NCBI GenBank assembly: GCA_016212665.1
Contig: JACREZ010000005.1
Location: 1-64,000 of the forward strand
DNA: 64,000 bases
From: Ignavibacteriota bacterium
GTDB lineage: Bacteria; Bacteroidota; Ignavibacteria; UBA10030; SZUA-254
Direction of reading: 5' to 3'
In this document: in pieces, positions 6,868 to 58,727 of the stretch
Layout: every line of letters starts with the position of its first letter
Numbering within the stretch: the first letter of the stretch is position 1
Notes under the pieces: model-generated
The model's input: only the letters and a program-made list of their open reading frames with translations
What the model was told of the DNA's origin: nothing
Databases searched by the model: none
Position numbers and translations under genes: made by a program

Positions 6868-7098
6868 ACATTGTCAGTGAAAGAGAAATCTTTGTGCGAA
6901 ATAAATTTGTCTTTGTACGTGAAAGAGCCGTCTATTATGAGTGAAGGTTGTTCTTTCTTGAGTGAAGATGCGTCTCGGATGGATGAAGAGACCTCTTTTT
7001 ATGATGAATGAGTGACTTCTTTGGAAGAAGATTGTTCTTTATACGATGAATGTCTGTCCAGATACGATGAAGGAATGGACTGAACGGGTGAACTTATG
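6868..7098 (+). repeat. 21-bp periodic array, 11 degenerate units (A1)
   Basis: Eleven consecutive units of exactly 21 bp with no length slippage across 231 bp. Unit starts at 6889, 6910, 6931, 6952, 6973, 6994, 7015, 7036 and 7057 mostly begin TCT or TCC and carry GATGAA or GTGAA near the middle. Read as codons, each is seven residues of the type S-L-Y-D-E-x-x, but a TGA interrupts near 7009, so it is not an intact protein. Downstream of the restriction gene. Confidence 0.75.
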
Positions 7099-16812: not shown

Positions 16813-17505
16813 ATGAGCAATATCAGTAGTGAAGGATTAGAAGACGAGTATCGGAGTATTGATGCTCTCTGTACAACATACGCAAGCGTTTTAGAAAAGC
16901 GCGGCGTTACTGCCGAGGTGCGCGCCAATTACGCATCGGCGATTAACACCATGACGATGAAACGCGCAGCGTACTATTCGGCAGAATCATCGAAGGAAGA
17001 ATTGACACGCGAGGAAAAACAAGCGCGTGCAGAACTTCTTACTGTCATCAACGCGTTTCGGCAGGCGGCGAAGGATACCTTCCCGGCTCGAAGTCCGCTC
17101 CTCAAAAAATTTCATGTCGGCGATAACCACGGCAACTCGACCAAGACGTTGCTTGCATGGGCGGACGACATCAAACAAAATTTCTCTCCGGAGAATGCAC
17201 CGATGAAACAGAAGGGAGGAATCCTCGATGAAGACCTTGACGCTTTAACAAATGAGCGTATCAATCTCGCCTCGAAAGACTCACAACAAAAAACGATGGA
17301 GACCTCGACCATACCGACTGCGTTCAAAGAACTCACCACCTCGATGAACGATGTGAAAACGATTGCCGACTTCATCCAGGGGAAAGCGAAGATGGTCTTT
17401 GCCAAAGATAAAGTGACGTTGAAAAAATTTGAGCAAGCGAAGCGACTCCGCTTCACGCAACCCGGCACAAAACCGAAAGCCCCCGAACCACCTCCGGCGA
17501 AATAG
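16813..17505 (+). CDS. Uncharacterised helical orphan protein (paralogue of 439-1131)
   Basis: 230 residues, helical, no recognised domain, no signal sequence. It aligns over its full length with the product of 439-1131 (LEKRG.T, IN.FR.AAKD.F, SP.LK.F.VG, GGIL.ED, ADFI.GKA...FAKDK) and ends in a proline-rich tail KPKAPEPPPAK. A second set of orphan genes at 46622 and 57244 has comparable context. A 13-unit 21-bp array begins 36 bp after the stop. Unknown function; the duplication and shared upstream motif suggest a mobile or expanding family. Confidence 0.8.
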   Translation: MSNISSEGLEDEYRSIDALCTTYASVLEKRGVTAEVRANYASAINTMTMKRAAYYSAESSKEELTREEKQARAELLTVINAFRQAAKDTFPARSPLLKKFHVGDNHGNSTKTLLAWADDIKQNFSPENAPMKQKGGILDEDLDALTNERINLASKDSQQKTMETSTIPTAFKELTTSMNDVKTIADFIQGKAKMVFAKDKVTLKKFEQAKRLRFTQPGTKPKAPEPPPAK

Positions 17506-17541: not shown

Positions 17542-17814
17542 CCGTTTCGGTTCTCTACCAATCTTTTGGATGCAGAGACGCGTCTGTTTGATTTCATGAG
17601 CCGGCTATTCCATTCGTATAACGTTCTATTTGACTTCTCTAACAAAAATGTTCATCTCTATAGTAATCTATTGCGCTTACATAAGAAACTTTTTGGTTTC
17701 TATGGACAGATATTTGGGTTCTATAGGAGGATATTGTGTATGTATGAGCGGATAATCGGTTTCTTTTCCTCAATTATGGTGTATTTGGGGAATATTTTGA
17801 GTTTTTGCTTTATC
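17542..17814 (+). repeat. 21-bp periodic array, 13 degenerate units (A2)
   Basis: Thirteen units of exactly 21 bp. The best-conserved units start at 17584, 17626, 17689, 17710 and 17731 and follow the pattern nTATTTGGTTTCTATGG plus four variable bases. In one frame, which stays open to 17898, they read as heptapeptides such as L-F-G-F-Y-G-Q and I-F-G-F-Y-R-R. No ribosome-binding site or plausible protein family supports translation, so it is listed as a repeat. It follows the 16813 gene directly. Confidence 0.8.
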
Positions 17815-45983: not shown

Positions 45984-46064
45984 GTCGTAGTTTACCCATG
46001 CACGTTTTGCGTAGTTTCCCCCCCAAAAAATCGTAGTTTACCCCCCCAAAAATGCGTAGTTCAC
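45984..46064. repeat. Short GTAGTTTACCC repeat cluster with C7 tracts
   Basis: GTAGTT recurs at about 45986, 46011, 46033 and 46056, each followed by TTACCC or TTCCCCCCC and then AAAAA. Spacing is 22-25 bp. Two perfect C7 runs occur. No protein is encoded. It lies upstream of the 21-bp array A3. Confidence 0.6.
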
Positions 46065-46210
46065 GTATTGACTGGGATTTTTTTTTTCTTTATCATTACA
46101 CTCGTTGGTCAAATGATTATTTCCATTCAATAGTTATTGAAAGTTGAATCCATGACGATATATTCCTTTTTTGAGCAATGCCCCAAATTTCATCAGAAAC
46201 GCATTTCCGC

Positions 46211-46378
46211 CGTCGGAAATTGATGCCTATGGGACGGAAATCGTTAACTATCTTTCGGAAACCGCTAACTATGCTTTGGAAATCGCATACTATCCTTTTG
46301 AAATCGCCAACTATCCTTCGGAAATTGGTAACTGTACGACGGAAAAGGTCAACGTGAGAATGGAAAGCCTATTCTCCG
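46211..46378 (+). repeat. 21-bp periodic array, 8 degenerate units (A3)
   Basis: Eight consecutive units of 21 bp; the consensus is CCNTCGGAAATCGCNAACTA. In one frame it reads P-S-E-I-A-N-Y-type heptapeptides and stays open to about 46473, but no start signal supports a protein. It ends about 243 bp before the 46622 orphan gene. Confidence 0.8.
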
Positions 46379-46621: not shown

Positions 46622-47347
46622 ATGAGTCGTCCGAAAGAAGTAGTTCGACTATATACAATGGCAGATTCTGATATGATGCAGGTATCGGAGAAAACCCGCG
46701 AAGCATTTATTGAGGATAATGCAGATTTTCAGGCATTCGACCCTGATTTTAAGGACCCGTATGCCGCGAACTGGCAGTCTGAGATTGATGCCGCTAAAAG
46801 CGTACCAACCGATAATGTCATAGTTGACACTATGACGATTTTAACCACTGCCACAGAAAATGCGATGGAGTTATGCCGGAATAAATTTCAGTCAATGAAG
46901 TTTTTCATCGAGAAAGCATTCCCGAATAAGACTTCTATCTGGAATGAGTTCGGGTATAACGATTATGACAGGTCGAGGACATCTCATCCGCTGATGATTT
47001 CGTTTATGCGCGATCTCTATGCAGTTGCACAAAAATACAGTGCGGAACTGATTGCGAAAAATTTTACGCAAGCGATGATTGATGAAATCGGAACGTTATT
47101 GAACCAATTGAACAGTTCCGATACGGCGCAGGAAGCATACAAAGGTACCCGCGAGGTCCTGACGCAGAATAGAATTATTCTCCTGAACCAAGTCTGGACA
47201 ACGACGGTGACAGTATGCAGAGCCGGGAAGTTGATTTACATGAACAACTATGCGAAGTACCAACGCTACGTGTTGCCGGGCGACCCGACGACTCCGGATG
47301 AGGAACCACCTCCGCCACCACCGGACCAGCCGCCGCCTACGCCGTAG
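46622..47347 (+). CDS. Uncharacterised helical orphan protein with proline tail
   Basis: 241 residues: a predicted helical bundle (about 1-210) with the segments FFIEKAFPNKTSIWNEFG, LAVAQKYSAELIAKNF and a C-terminal YAKYQRYVLPGDPTTPDEE leading to a poly-proline tail (PPPPPPDQPPPTP). The layout, with a helical core, basic segment and proline-rich end, is like the 16813 gene, with little sequence identity. AAAGGAAC precedes ATG 46622. It lies downstream of a 21-bp array. Function unknown. Confidence 0.75.
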   Translation: MSRPKEVVRLYTMADSDMMQVSEKTREAFIEDNADFQAFDPDFKDPYAANWQSEIDAAKSVPTDNVIVDTMTILTTATENAMELCRNKFQSMKFFIEKAFPNKTSIWNEFGYNDYDRSRTSHPLMISFMRDLYAVAQKYSAELIAKNFTQAMIDEIGTLLNQLNSSDTAQEAYKGTREVLTQNRIILLNQVWTTTVTVCRAGKLIYMNNYAKYQRYVLPGDPTTPDEEPPPPPPDQPPPTP

Positions 47348-47473: not shown

Positions 47474-47558
47474 CGGAAAATTTTTACAGGTGTTGCTGGT
47501 GATACGGTGATGCCCAAGAAAACCAGGTAAAACTTGACTGAAACAATTGGACACAGGT

Positions 47559-49325
47559 ATGAAATATAAAAAATTCATTATAGAAAATTATCGAGGTATA
47601 ACTGATAGAATAGAAATTAATGTAGAAAAAAAATCATTACTACCTATCATTGGGATTAATGAATGCGGTAAAACAACAATCCTCAATGCCATTTATGCTT
47701 TTGATTATATGAATGATTGGCAAAATAAAACGTTTTCACACCTAACCGATATCATGAATCTCTATAAAGTTTCTAGCGGCATTTGTAGTATATCAGCAGT
47801 AGTGAATGTTACCAAGGCAGAATTGAAGGAATCGATGAAAAGTAAACTACAACTTACCGATACAAATGCTGATGAAAAGCTTAAGAGATTTTATGATACT
47901 AAGGAGTTTGAAATCACAATTACTCGAAAATTAGTTTATCAAAACAATCAATTATCAAGTTTTTATGAGTTCTACCCTAAACTATCCCTGAAAAATCCAA
48001 GTGAGGAGAATGATTTTTGTAAAGAACTAATTCTAAAACTACCCTACATACTTTATTTCGATGACTTCAGAGAGATATTTCCCGATATAATAGAAATTAC
48101 CAGTGAGAATCAAAATGTAGGATGGCTTCCTATAATACAAGAATTATTTATTCAGACTGATGAAAGTTATTCAGTTTATGATTTAAAAAATTTAGAAGAG
48201 AGGAGAAGAAAATCCATTCTTGCACAAGTCAAGAGAAAATTGAATGCAACGTTGACAGCACAATGGTCAAATTTTAGATTAGAAAATAAAGACGCTCTTG
48301 AAATCGATATAGATTTTAAGATTGAAAATAAAGTTACTCCTGTAATAAAAGAAATTAGGCAAGGCAATAATGTTGTAAAGCAAAGACATGATCAAGAAAT
48401 CGAAAAATATTTTTTAAAATTCGATCTTATAGAAAGGGATTCCAATGGGATAGAACATTATTTTTATATAAAAAATAGAAGTAAAGGATTTTATTGGTTT
48501 TTTAATTTTGTTATGAAATTAGAATTCAATCCTGATAAAGCTGGTGATCTTAATAATGCAATATATTTACTTGATGAGCCTGGATCTTATTTACACCCAT
48601 ATGCACAGACTAAACTTTGTAAAAAATTAAAAGAGCTATCCAATGAGAATATAGTTATTTATTGTACACATTCTCATTATCTGCTAAATCCAGAAACAAT
48701 ACCACTAAATAATATTCATGTTGTTAACAAAAATGAATTAGGTGACATTGTAATAAATCTGTTCCATCAATATCAAAATCAAAAGAGTAAGGGTGTTGAA
48801 ACAGCATTTCAAACTATTAATGAGGCACTATTTTTAAAACCTTTTGATATTGATATTAATAATAAAAAAATAATGATTGTAGAGGGTATTTATGACTACT
48901 ATGCGTATTCATTATTTAATCACAGCAAGGAATTCAGCATTTTACCGGGAAAGGGATCTGAGTCGTTGATAAACTTCATTTCATTAATGATAGCATTTGA
49001 AGTTGATTTCCGTGTTCTTTGGGATAACGATTCATCGGGAAATATAAGTTATGAAAAAGCAAAAACATTTTTTGGTGATGAAATGGCAAACAAGCATTTC
49101 TTCTTATTACCATCTAAAAATGGAAAGAAAAGAATACTACAAGATTTATTTGAGCCAATCGATTTAAGCATGATTAATAATGCACTACAACTAAATGATA
49201 AAGTATCTTTTGAAAAAAAGATATCGTCTCTTTTTTTCGATGAAAGCAAAAATGAAATTGTTAAAAAGATATCTCAAAAAACAAAAGATAATTTCAACAA
49301 TGTGTTTAGGTCAGTCATTTATTAA
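47559..49325 (+). CDS. OLD-family ATPase/TOPRIM nuclease
   Basis: 588 residues from ATG 47559. Walker A is GINECGKTT, the ABC-type D-loop region is IYLLDEPGSYLHP, and a TOPRIM module follows with the glutamate in IVEGIYDYYAY and the LWDNDSSG acidic pair. OLD nucleases of this kind are antiviral (P2 Old, GajA of Gabija). No UvrD-like partner gene (as in Gabija) is adjacent, so it would be a class 1, single-gene form. The gene is very AT-rich compared with the flanks, suggesting horizontal acquisition. Confidence 0.85.
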   Translation: MKYKKFIIENYRGITDRIEINVEKKSLLPIIGINECGKTTILNAIYAFDYMNDWQNKTFSHLTDIMNLYKVSSGICSISAVVNVTKAELKESMKSKLQLTDTNADEKLKRFYDTKEFEITITRKLVYQNNQLSSFYEFYPKLSLKNPSEENDFCKELILKLPYILYFDDFREIFPDIIEITSENQNVGWLPIIQELFIQTDESYSVYDLKNLEERRRKSILAQVKRKLNATLTAQWSNFRLENKDALEIDIDFKIENKVTPVIKEIRQGNNVVKQRHDQEIEKYFLKFDLIERDSNGIEHYFYIKNRSKGFYWFFNFVMKLEFNPDKAGDLNNAIYLLDEPGSYLHPYAQTKLCKKLKELSNENIVIYCTHSHYLLNPETIPLNNIHVVNKNELGDIVINLFHQYQNQKSKGVETAFQTINEALFLKPFDIDINNKKIMIVEGIYDYYAYSLFNHSKEFSILPGKGSESLINFISLMIAFEVDFRVLWDNDSSGNISYEKAKTFFGDEMANKHFFLLPSKNGKKRILQDLFEPIDLSMINNALQLNDKVSFEKKISSLFFDESKNEIVKKISQKTKDNFNNVFRSVIY

Positions 49326-55849: not shown

Positions 55850-56323
55850 ATGAAACAATCAGTGTATATTGAAACCAGTGTAATAAGCTATTTGACTGCA
55901 AAACCCAGTAGAGATATTATCGTGGTTGCTCATCAACAGATAACGACCGAATGGTGGTCAGAACGAAAGAATAATTATCGGTTGTTTGTTTCCGAAATCG
56001 TTTTCCAGGAAGCAAGCAAAGGCGATGTCGAAGCAGCAAGTAAAAGAATGGAAACAATTAAATCGCTTGAGATGCTTTCATTAACTGAGAACGCGCGCGA
56101 ACTAACGCGTATTATTATCAACAAAGGAATAGTCCCCATTGAGCATGTAGAAGATGCATTGCATATCGCAATTGCAAGTGTGCATGAGATGGATTATCTT
56201 TTAACATGGAATTGCAAACACATTGCAAATGCTGAAATTCAAAAAGATTTGAAAAAACTTGTACACGAATCCGGATATACGTTGCCGGTCCTCTGTACTC
56301 CAGAAGAATTATTAGGAAAATAA
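55850..56323 (+). CDS. PIN-domain protein (VapC-like)
   Basis: 157 residues: the N-terminal VYIETSVISYLTAKPSRD carries the first acidic residue as Glu (normally Asp), LFVSEIVFQEASKGD the second, and EHVEDALHIAIASVHEMDYLLTWNCKHIAN the C-terminal set. Starts 4 bp after the acnA stop, so it may be co-transcribed. The small gene after it is its likely antitoxin. Confidence 0.85.
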   Translation: MKQSVYIETSVISYLTAKPSRDIIVVAHQQITTEWWSERKNNYRLFVSEIVFQEASKGDVEAASKRMETIKSLEMLSLTENARELTRIIINKGIVPIEHVEDALHIAIASVHEMDYLLTWNCKHIANAEIQKDLKKLVHESGYTLPVLCTPEELLGK

Positions 56324-56501: not shown

Positions 56502-56788
56502 TTCAGACTTGGTCCCACGCTCCAAGCATGTATGAGGTCAACGATAAGTTTTTGGGAATAGGAATAATATACAGATGCTCTGAGTCCAGCAAAAGAAAAC
56601 AGATTATGAACCAAACTCTGCACAAAATATTTGATGTTGAATTTACGTTTGATTACACTTCAGGAATCAACGCGGAGCGTAGGAATGAGTTATAAATTTT
56701 GACTCCACACCCAAATCAAAATTGTCCCATTGCATGGGATGCGCAGGTTGATATCAGGCGATTCTGTTACCGAGAATGTCAGAAAACT

Positions 56789-57075
56789 TGCTACGGTCGG
56801 AGGGAATATTGAAGGCAACATGAGGGGGTATTGGTATGGTTAGAGGGGATGTTGAAGGCAACATGAGGGGGGTTGGTATGGTTTGAGGGGATGTTGAAGG
56901 CAACATGAGGGTTGTTGGTACGGTTTGAGGGGATATTGAAGCCAACATGAGGTGATGTTGGTGCGGTTTGAGGGGATGTTGAACCCAATAGCGGGAACAA
57001 TAATGCGGTTTGAAGGGTCATTGAAGATAACATTGGCACATGTTGGCGATAACATGGCGGGCTGTTATGCGAGAA
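56789..57075 (+). repeat. 21-bp periodic array, 42-bp higher order (A4)
   Basis: Units alternate between GGATGTTGAAGGCAACATGA and GGTTGTTGGTACGGTTTGAG types (each with one further base), repeating every 42-43 bp, with about 13 half-units. GTTGAAGGCAAC in half of them can fold into a mini-hairpin. The end lies about 170 bp before the 57244 orphan gene. Reverse frames read M-L-P-S-T-S-P / Q-T-I-P-T-P-L heptads but are spurious. Confidence 0.8.
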
Positions 57076-57243
57076 ATGCCTAAAATAAGCCGATTTGAAG
57101 AATTTAATAAAAAAGAGTGTTCTTTGCGCCGTGGAGATTTCACGATGCCGAACAATAATAAATGCAGTCAAAATAATAAACAATTTCAAGCCCTTTTTGG
57201 GGATACATAATTAACAACACAAGTAATTACAAGGAAAAACATC

Positions 57244-57864
57244 ATGGCAAGAAAAGATTATTATGAAAACGTCGAGAAGAAAAAGCCGACGTGGCACGAG
57301 AACTACTCGACGAAACTCGAGGAGCATTTGGCGATACTCGGAATCACGCCGGAACAACTTGCTCAGGCACAGGCAGATTCGGTAACGGTTCGCACGGAGA
57401 TTGACGAAACCGAGCAGGCAAAGCAAGCATACTTTGCACGGGTAAGCCGGAAAAATACAACCTTAAGTACGATTGAGGCGCGTACCCGTGCGGTTGCGAA
57501 CTTCATTAAAGCAAGCCCCGGCTATACCGAAGCAATCGGGATTGACCTTGGTATCGTGGGTGAAGAAGCCGGATTGCCGACTTCGTTGGAAAATGTAAAG
57601 CCGGAGGTTACTATTACCCTGATGCCCGGTCGTGTTCGCAACGATTGGAAGAAGGGGAAGTTTCATGCACTTGCAGTCTATCGTATGCGCGGCGCCGAAA
57701 CCGAATGGAAAAAAATAGAAACCGATTTAAAGTCCCCCTTCGATGATGAAGACCCGAATCTTGTACCGGGCGTTCCCGAACTGCGGAAGTACAAATATGT
57801 GTACATCCTCGATGACATCGAAGTTGGCATCGCGCTTGAACTGAGCGTGGTGGTGTTGCAATAA
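57244..57864 (+). CDS. Uncharacterised orphan, helical N-terminus and FN3-like C-terminus
   Basis: 206 residues. The N-terminal half is helical (TPEQLAQAQADSVTVRTEID). The C-terminal half (about 115-205) has alternating strands typical of a fibronectin-III-like domain: PEVTITLMPGRVRNDWKKG, AVYRMRGAETEWKKIETDLKS, YVYILDDIEVGIALELSVVV. Similar proteins are widespread, uncharacterised, in this group. AAGGAAAAACATC precedes ATG 57244. Array A4 lies just upstream. Confidence 0.75.
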   Translation: MARKDYYENVEKKKPTWHENYSTKLEEHLAILGITPEQLAQAQADSVTVRTEIDETEQAKQAYFARVSRKNTTLSTIEARTRAVANFIKASPGYTEAIGIDLGIVGEEAGLPTSLENVKPEVTITLMPGRVRNDWKKGKFHALAVYRMRGAETEWKKIETDLKSPFDDEDPNLVPGVPELRKYKYVYILDDIEVGIALELSVVVLQ

Positions 57865-58059: not shown

Positions 58060-58323
58060 ATGCTTAATCCCACAATAACAGAACAAGTTCGAAAACTCTC
58101 ACCATCTGAGCGGATAGATTTGATAGAGTTTGCGGTATCGCTTGTCAAAGAAGATACTGTCGTACAGAAAAAGAAATTACCTCAATCTCAGGAAAACGTT
58201 TCTGACGTTTTGCTTTCAATTGCAGAAATGGTTGACAATATTCCTGAAAGTGAAGTGGAAAAACTTCCTACAGATTTTGCAACGAATCATGACTACTATC
58301 TTTATCAGGCGCCGAAAAAATGA
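58060..58323 (+). CDS. Antitoxin of a PIN module
   Basis: 87 residues from ATG 58060: LNPTITEQVRKLSPSERIDL (helical dimerisation), then a variable acidic middle, and a tail FATNHDYYLYQAPKK similar to antitoxins of this kind. The stop overlaps the toxin start by 4 bp (ATGA). Confidence 0.8.
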   Translation: MLNPTITEQVRKLSPSERIDLIEFAVSLVKEDTVVQKKKLPQSQENVSDVLLSIAEMVDNIPESEVEKLPTDFATNHDYYLYQAPKK

Positions 58324-58727
58324 ATCAGGTCTATGCCGACGCCTTTTTCTGGATTGCGTTTTTTAATCGTCGAGATAAGTTCCACATCAAGGCAAGATCG
58401 TTTGCAACTTCCAATAAGTCGAAAACATTAGTAACCACTGATGCGGTACTTCTTGAAGTATTAAATCAATTCGCATCTCAGGGAGAATATTGGAGAAACT
58501 TGATAGCAAAGGCAGTTGAAAAATTATTGCAAGATTCAAAGACACGAATAATTCCGCTTACAAGAACTCTATTCAATCAAGGATTGACATTGTATAAAAC
58601 CCGATTGGATAAAGAATATAGTTTCGTAGATTGCATATCAATGGTTGTGATGAAACAAGAAAACATCAAAGAAGTTTTATCCAACGACCATCATTTTGTG
58701 CAAGAAGGATTCGCAACGCTTCTCTGA
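58320..58727 (+). CDS. PIN-domain toxin (VapC-like)
   Basis: 135 residues: YADAFFWIAFFN (Asp at the metal site), LLEVLNQF, YSFVDCISMVVM and NDHHFVQEGF form the complete PIN fold. Similar in layout to the 23125 toxin; likely related but not identical. Probably an RNase. Confidence 0.9.
   Translation: MNQVYADAFFWIAFFNRRDKFHIKARSFATSNKSKTLVTTDAVLLEVLNQFASQGEYWRNLIAKAVEKLLQDSKTRIIPLTRTLFNQGLTLYKTRLDKEYSFVDCISMVVMKQENIKEVLSNDHHFVQEGFATLL

Follow-up and report, generated by a model that had tools for sequence, protein, structure and literature searches.

A non-coding 21-bp repeat array beside a gene of an uncharacterised superfamily in an Ignavibacteriota genome: one case of an apparently undescribed two-part element

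Iterons and the centromere repeats read by ParR-type proteins are tandem units of about 20–22 bp that lie in helical phase, are bound cooperatively and often stand beside the gene for their binder. The repeat unit of type III toxin–antitoxin systems (ToxIN, CptIN and TenpIN) is longer, at about 34–50 nt. These systems pair an endoribonuclease toxin with an antitoxin RNA made of several repeats (PMC8860590, PMC4627078). Here we describe array A4, which lies in a 64-kb window (the whole stretch of DNA that was analysed, 64,000 nucleotides) of an Ignavibacteriota genome, together with similar arrays linked to the A1, A5 and A6 branches of one gene superfamily. Like iterons, these arrays consist of tandem repeats of about 20–22 bp in helical phase: 629 of 654 unit spacings, over two sets, were multiples of 21 under a delineation that mildly penalises shifts. 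Unlike iterons and ParR sites, they are chromosomal, occur at many loci per genome with differing units and have no adjacent Rep or Par protein; the queries we used found no matches in phage and plasmid collections. With type III systems they share, at most loci, a position 5′ of a gene of about 200 codons and locus-specific, hairpin-capable repeats, but the basic unit is 21 bp throughout (with a super-period of 42 in A4), the array is upstream at 35 of 46 A1 and 19 of 23 A5 loci but 3′ in the A6 branch, and we found neither a match to a ToxN/AbiF-fold endoribonuclease nor an RNA-strand signature. Bacterial minisatellites (VNTRs) and the higher-order repeats of eukaryotic satellites are likewise tandem, evolve in concert and form dimeric higher-order repeats, whereas here a fixed 21-bp period runs over different sequences, is linked to a gene family and shows very few indels when diverged. 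Tandem operators, too, are phased dyads repeated several times ahead of a gene, but the present arrays are long (often 8–20 sites) and differ at each paralog. Unlike a CRISPR-like array, they have no separate unique spacers, and their superfamily neighbours have no PADLOC match. We found no description of such a two-part element in the open-access literature, and it is apparently undescribed.

Array A4 (56,787–57,062, forward strand) is non-coding. A unit profile resolves 13 slots in it, 12 of them filled by 21-bp units and one skipped, which agrees with the original prediction of about 13 half-units. Tandem Repeats Finder (TRF) reported a 42-bp period at 56,788–56,983 (4.6 copies, 87% matches, score 273), and the repeat continues at lower identity to 57,033. 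Because alternate units were 79% identical and adjacent units only 35%, the 42-bp super-period is genuine, and the two interleaved sequence classes that had been predicted with it are real. Self-match at period 42 was 0.889, compared with a maximum of 0.476 in the locally shuffled window (z of about 15), and a chance origin of the periodicity is excluded. Its basic unit is 21 bp, on which a higher-order repeat with a 42-bp step is superimposed. Successive units were spaced by 21, 22, 21, 21, 21, 21, 21, 22, 21, 21 and 43 bp, three of these values (22, 22 and 43) not being multiples of 21. The palindrome that had been assigned to one class is present in one unit class: reading the sequence, we located the perfect mini-dyad ATGTTGAAGGCAACAT (ATGTTG-AAGG-CAACAT) on the forward strand at 56,849–56,864 in unit 4, a second perfect copy at 56,891–56,906 and one-mismatch copies at 56,806–56,821 and 56,933–56,948. 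Taken alone at the 21-bp register, A4 showed no significant dyad symmetry. The array had also been interpreted as a satellite-like expansion of a dimer. That account stands in part: A4 does have a dimeric higher-order repeat, structures of dimer type are also seen in other arrays (C37a, C25, G002_188 and, weakly, G301), and a trio of related arrays gives support for satellite-like concerted evolution. It falls short in treating the array as an isolated curiosity; what is constant is the 21-bp period and the link with a protein superfamily.

An AT-rich leader (57,063–57,243, forward strand), which presumably carries a promoter and ribosome-binding site, separates A4 from a gene of the A1 family (57,244–57,864, forward strand). 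The encoded 206-aa protein was modelled as an N-terminal helical hairpin followed by a C-terminal FN3-like domain, at low confidence (pLDDT 65). It matched no Pfam, NCBIfam or PADLOC family, gave no convincing PHROG match and contained no recognisable DNA-binding domain. PHROG matches of E 1e-4 to 1e-2 for the superfamily protein were judged to be chance, as were the matches to solved structures by sequence, which reflected only coiled coils. Comparison with solved structures by fold gave weak FN3 matches, none at E ≤ 0.001, and viral contigs contained no relative. The window holds three more genes of the superfamily, all on the forward strand: a 241-aa gene of the A5 branch (46,622–47,347), a 230-aa gene of the A6 branch (16,813–17,505), in which most arrays stand 3′ of the gene, and a second A6-branch gene (439–1,131) that is 36% identical to the first. 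Enlarged alignments connected A5 with A6 at E 1e-24 and A1 with A5 at E 1e-9, and A1 with A6 weakly; judged by these alignments, the three branches are homologous, A1 and A5 remotely. The A1-family gene recurs in this genome as 12 other copies or fragments. Four loci of the genome (L017, L018, L019 and L020) carry truncated C-terminal A1-family copies, 63–75% identical over the last 36–64 residues, which are apparently decaying paralogs. Among the genomes compared, most of them metagenome assemblies, the family is patchy, with 14 matches in one relative and none in most; 22 of 391 genomes across the class carry it. Named relatives come from metagenome assemblies of Ignavibacteriales and Bacteroidota.

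Scanning the window for periods of 8–49, with thresholds derived from shuffles of the same 64 kb, we found four strong arrays, at 6,925, 17,629, 46,210 and 56,827 (A4), all with a period of 21 or 42 and all differing in sequence. The array at 46,200–46,346 (forward strand) has another unit sequence and lies about 280 bp upstream of the A5-branch gene, and the one at 17,576–17,806 (forward strand) lies about 70 bp 3′ of the 230-aa A6-branch gene. The array at 6,925–7,055 (approximate ends) is an orphan with no adjacent superfamily gene, as are three others (C16:56930, C16:320129 and G009:243608). No strong array was detected near the gene at 439–1,131, upstream of which the contig begins after 438 bp. 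A short 23-bp tandem repeat (GCGTAGTTTACCCCCCCAAAAAA) occupies 46,009–46,061, beside the 46.2-kb array. Four more period-21 arrays lie on a 339-kb contig from this genome, and we found no such arrays in stretches of three relatives that lack the gene family. An apparent 21-periodicity in genome G004 was a false signal from GroEL. We also rejected the idea that A4 is a mobile repeat: its exact unit is unique in the genome and had no real match in 40 relatives.

The arrays are associated with the superfamily well beyond this window. Among 46 full-length A1-family genes, which were best hits rather than a random sample and are not fully independent because the set includes related genes, 35 were preceded by a strong array at a distance of no more than 700 bp. 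The best period in a scan of 15–29 was exactly 21 in all 35 of these arrays, and at two more A1 loci (C23 and C16) an array lay just past 700 bp. As controls, an array was found within 720 bp downstream in 3 of 44 cases and in 14 of 1,500 random windows. Most full-length A1 copies in the present genome have a 21-bp array nearby; in relatives, too, the arrays precede the gene, typically from about −550 to −100 relative to the start codon. In an unbiased 403 kb of this genome, an array adjoined five of six superfamily genes and a superfamily gene adjoined five of eight arrays, the other three being orphans. The A5 branch likewise had an array upstream of the gene (19 of 23). In core members of the A6 branch, and at C24 and C37b, the array stands 3′ of the gene, and a role as an upstream operator therefore fits poorly. 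A4 is one case of a two-part element made of a non-coding 21-bp array and an adjacent superfamily gene. The element recurs at dozens of loci in Ignavibacteria-like bacteria. Repeat sequences differ at most of them, a pattern that suggests conservation of spacing, rather than of sequence, in the arrays.

We examined how this spacing behaves as units diverge. For every indel the arrays contained about 130 differences from consensus, and old arrays were 27–36% diverged from their consensus with few or no indels. In an alignment of four genera, the stretch from the array to the gene start was gap-free from about column 75, with many substitutions, and the flank further upstream of the array was gapped. 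The period did not drift, and copy number did not change in the array stretches that could be aligned (C23 with C16, and the four genera). Dyad symmetry was enriched in unit consensuses, with a Fisher p of 2e-10 over 43 arrays that is overstated because some arrays are homologous; 16 of the 43 individually reached p < 0.05, and several dyads were near-perfect palindromes with little loop. This enrichment is suggestive, and A/T runs may contribute to it. The word GGAA, oriented with the gene, was found in 21 arrays against 6.1 expected, and its reverse complement in 10, a bias that suggests that the arrays have polarity. No promoter motif was general among the leaders, some of which contained AT-rich words and one resembling GGAACTTT.

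Array sequences are retained at some loci and replaced at others. Three A5 genes from different genera, whose proteins are 59–73% identical, share the unit core GGCGGAAC...TAACT. Units in this trio were 0.84–0.89 identical within genomes and 0.75–0.79 between them, and this comparison of sequences supports homogenisation of units within each genome, that is, concerted evolution. The trio array could be aligned across genera; most of the leader could not. Three paralogs in G021 are 84–85% identical from about −165 to the gene end and have unrelated arrays, and C23 and C16, recent duplicates in the present genome, have arrays that align without gaps. An all-against-all comparison found 33 pairs of arrays with similar units, where 3.5 were expected. 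In most pairs the units point the same way relative to the gene; the pairs include two orphan arrays that share units with gene-linked arrays in the same genome. Recent expansions with near-identical units were seen at C34, C24 and G125_71. At L014, L015, L069 and L070, duplicated segments end at a hairpin just 3′ of the gene, an inverted repeat of about 36–38 bp that is a possible terminator or element boundary.

Several other explanations of the arrays have to be weighed. If they were neutral minisatellites, tandem DNA without function that slippage and unequal exchange maintain where upstream regions are long, then concerted evolution, dimeric higher-order repeats, near-identical recent expansions and orphan arrays would all be expected. 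It is hard to reconcile such an origin with the association of arrays with one superfamily in many genera, a single period in 35 of 35 scored arrays, the near absence of indels from strongly diverged arrays, the enrichment of dyads and oriented GGAA, or an A5 array that is kept across genera next to a leader that is not, and we regard it as unlikely. Translation is much less credible still. A period that is a multiple of three (21 bp is seven codons) could encode heptapeptide repeats, and long open frames do occur, including one of 132 aa antisense across A4; stop codons were rarer than in column permutations, and frames open through the whole array were commoner on the sense strand (12 versus 2 arrays, p 0.013). 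However, unit variation carried no codon-position signal (2 of 43 arrays at p < 0.05), stops were equally frequent on the two strands (265 versus 262), consistent with a general depletion of TA, frame-breaking spacings occurred in 9 of 43 arrays, and the translated repeats have no obvious character in common. A4 itself has stops in all six frames as well as frame-breaking spacings, which contradicts translation there. The arrays are non-coding, and a translated role for them in general is very improbable. The C37b array (L013, 886–1221 from the gene start) has an open frame with LRESVAR-like, coiled-coil-like heptads, noted together with an opposite-strand ORF at L048 6187–6741; its unit variation is not coding-like, and this array may merit a separate check.

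We also considered that the array acts as RNA, in the manner of a type III toxin–antitoxin system, with a transcript of hairpin repeats that binds or restrains the downstream protein. The position 5′ of a gene of about 200 codons at most loci, the dyads in the units, folding more stable than that of shuffles (median z of about −2 on the sense strand) and slight covariation of the dyad arms are all compatible with this. Yet the folding excess was found on both strands, G–T pairs were not in excess over A–C pairs and showed no strand preference, several dyads leave little loop, the arrays of the A6 branch stand 3′ of their genes, and the adjacent protein, modelled as helical plus FN3, has no ToxN-type match in Pfam, NCBIfam or PADLOC. 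In Rfam nothing exceeded the cut-offs, and one miRNA match was judged to be chance. An RNA role is accordingly a decidedly unlikely one. Since 21 bp is two turns of B-DNA, the arrays might instead be structural, giving the promoter region or the nucleoid its shape by phased bending, irrespective of sequence and of any specific binder. In favour of this, the period equals two full turns of the helix in arrays of differing sequence, but a wedge model predicted a bend of 0.468 degrees per bp, no more than the 0.476 of column-permuted 21-bp arrays, and the arrays are therefore not simply curved DNA. Bending would also leave the dyads and the conservation of unit cores between orthologs unexplained, and we consider it an outside chance.

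The explanation that we favour, tentatively and at somewhat short of an even chance, is that the array is a helically phased, locus-specific row of protein-binding sites with a cis effect on the gene beside it. The roughly one-fifth of A1 genes that have no array, the orphan arrays and the small share of arrays with individually significant dyads count against it. Whereas the element itself is observed, this mechanism and its putative binding protein are inferred. Each unit would hold a candidate site for a DNA-binding protein, probably a dimer, and the 21-bp spacing would place all sites on one face of the helix and thereby allow cooperative assembly as a regular row. The assembled row may control expression of the adjacent gene or serve as a locus-specific address. 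Unit turnover would keep units alike within an array while their sequence drifts, with selection holding the helical phase. A site that is sometimes kept in orthologs and changed in paralogs is what would be expected of an address that avoids cross-talk. It is possible, although we hold this more doubtfully, that the arrays form a new class of chromosomal two-part element, in which a fixed-period array carries a locus-specific address and a protein reads it by assembling along the repeats. The adjacent superfamily protein, or a partner of it, is a possible reader.

The surroundings of these elements contain other genes of note. The superfamily gene at 439–1,131 is directly followed by an anti-phage cluster (1,349–6,700) with a SIR2 and HerA pair and then a type II methyltransferase and restriction enzyme. 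The array-linked gene at 46,622–47,347 is followed immediately by a gene for an AAA ATPase/OLD-type protein (47,547–49,325), whose best PADLOC match is AriA (E 2.5e-25). The array elements may favour defence-rich regions. PIN-domain genes flank the A4 element at 55,850–56,323 (a weak match) and 58,320–58,727 (a clear match, E 4e-12), and they possibly belong to toxin–antitoxin pairs because each is beside a small ORF.

If the favoured explanation is right, many unannotated proteins and seemingly random intergenic repeats would be two halves of one element, defined by the geometry of the DNA helix and not by sequence. Such elements could then be searched for by a simple signature, a period of exactly 21 beside a superfamily gene, and they would offer a direct test of how tandem arrays diverge in sequence yet keep phase. 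The arrays would also provide the first functional handle on an uncharacterised but widespread protein superfamily. Should the address reading hold, the many independently addressed copies in each genome would represent parallel, insulated circuits in Ignavibacteria-like bacteria.
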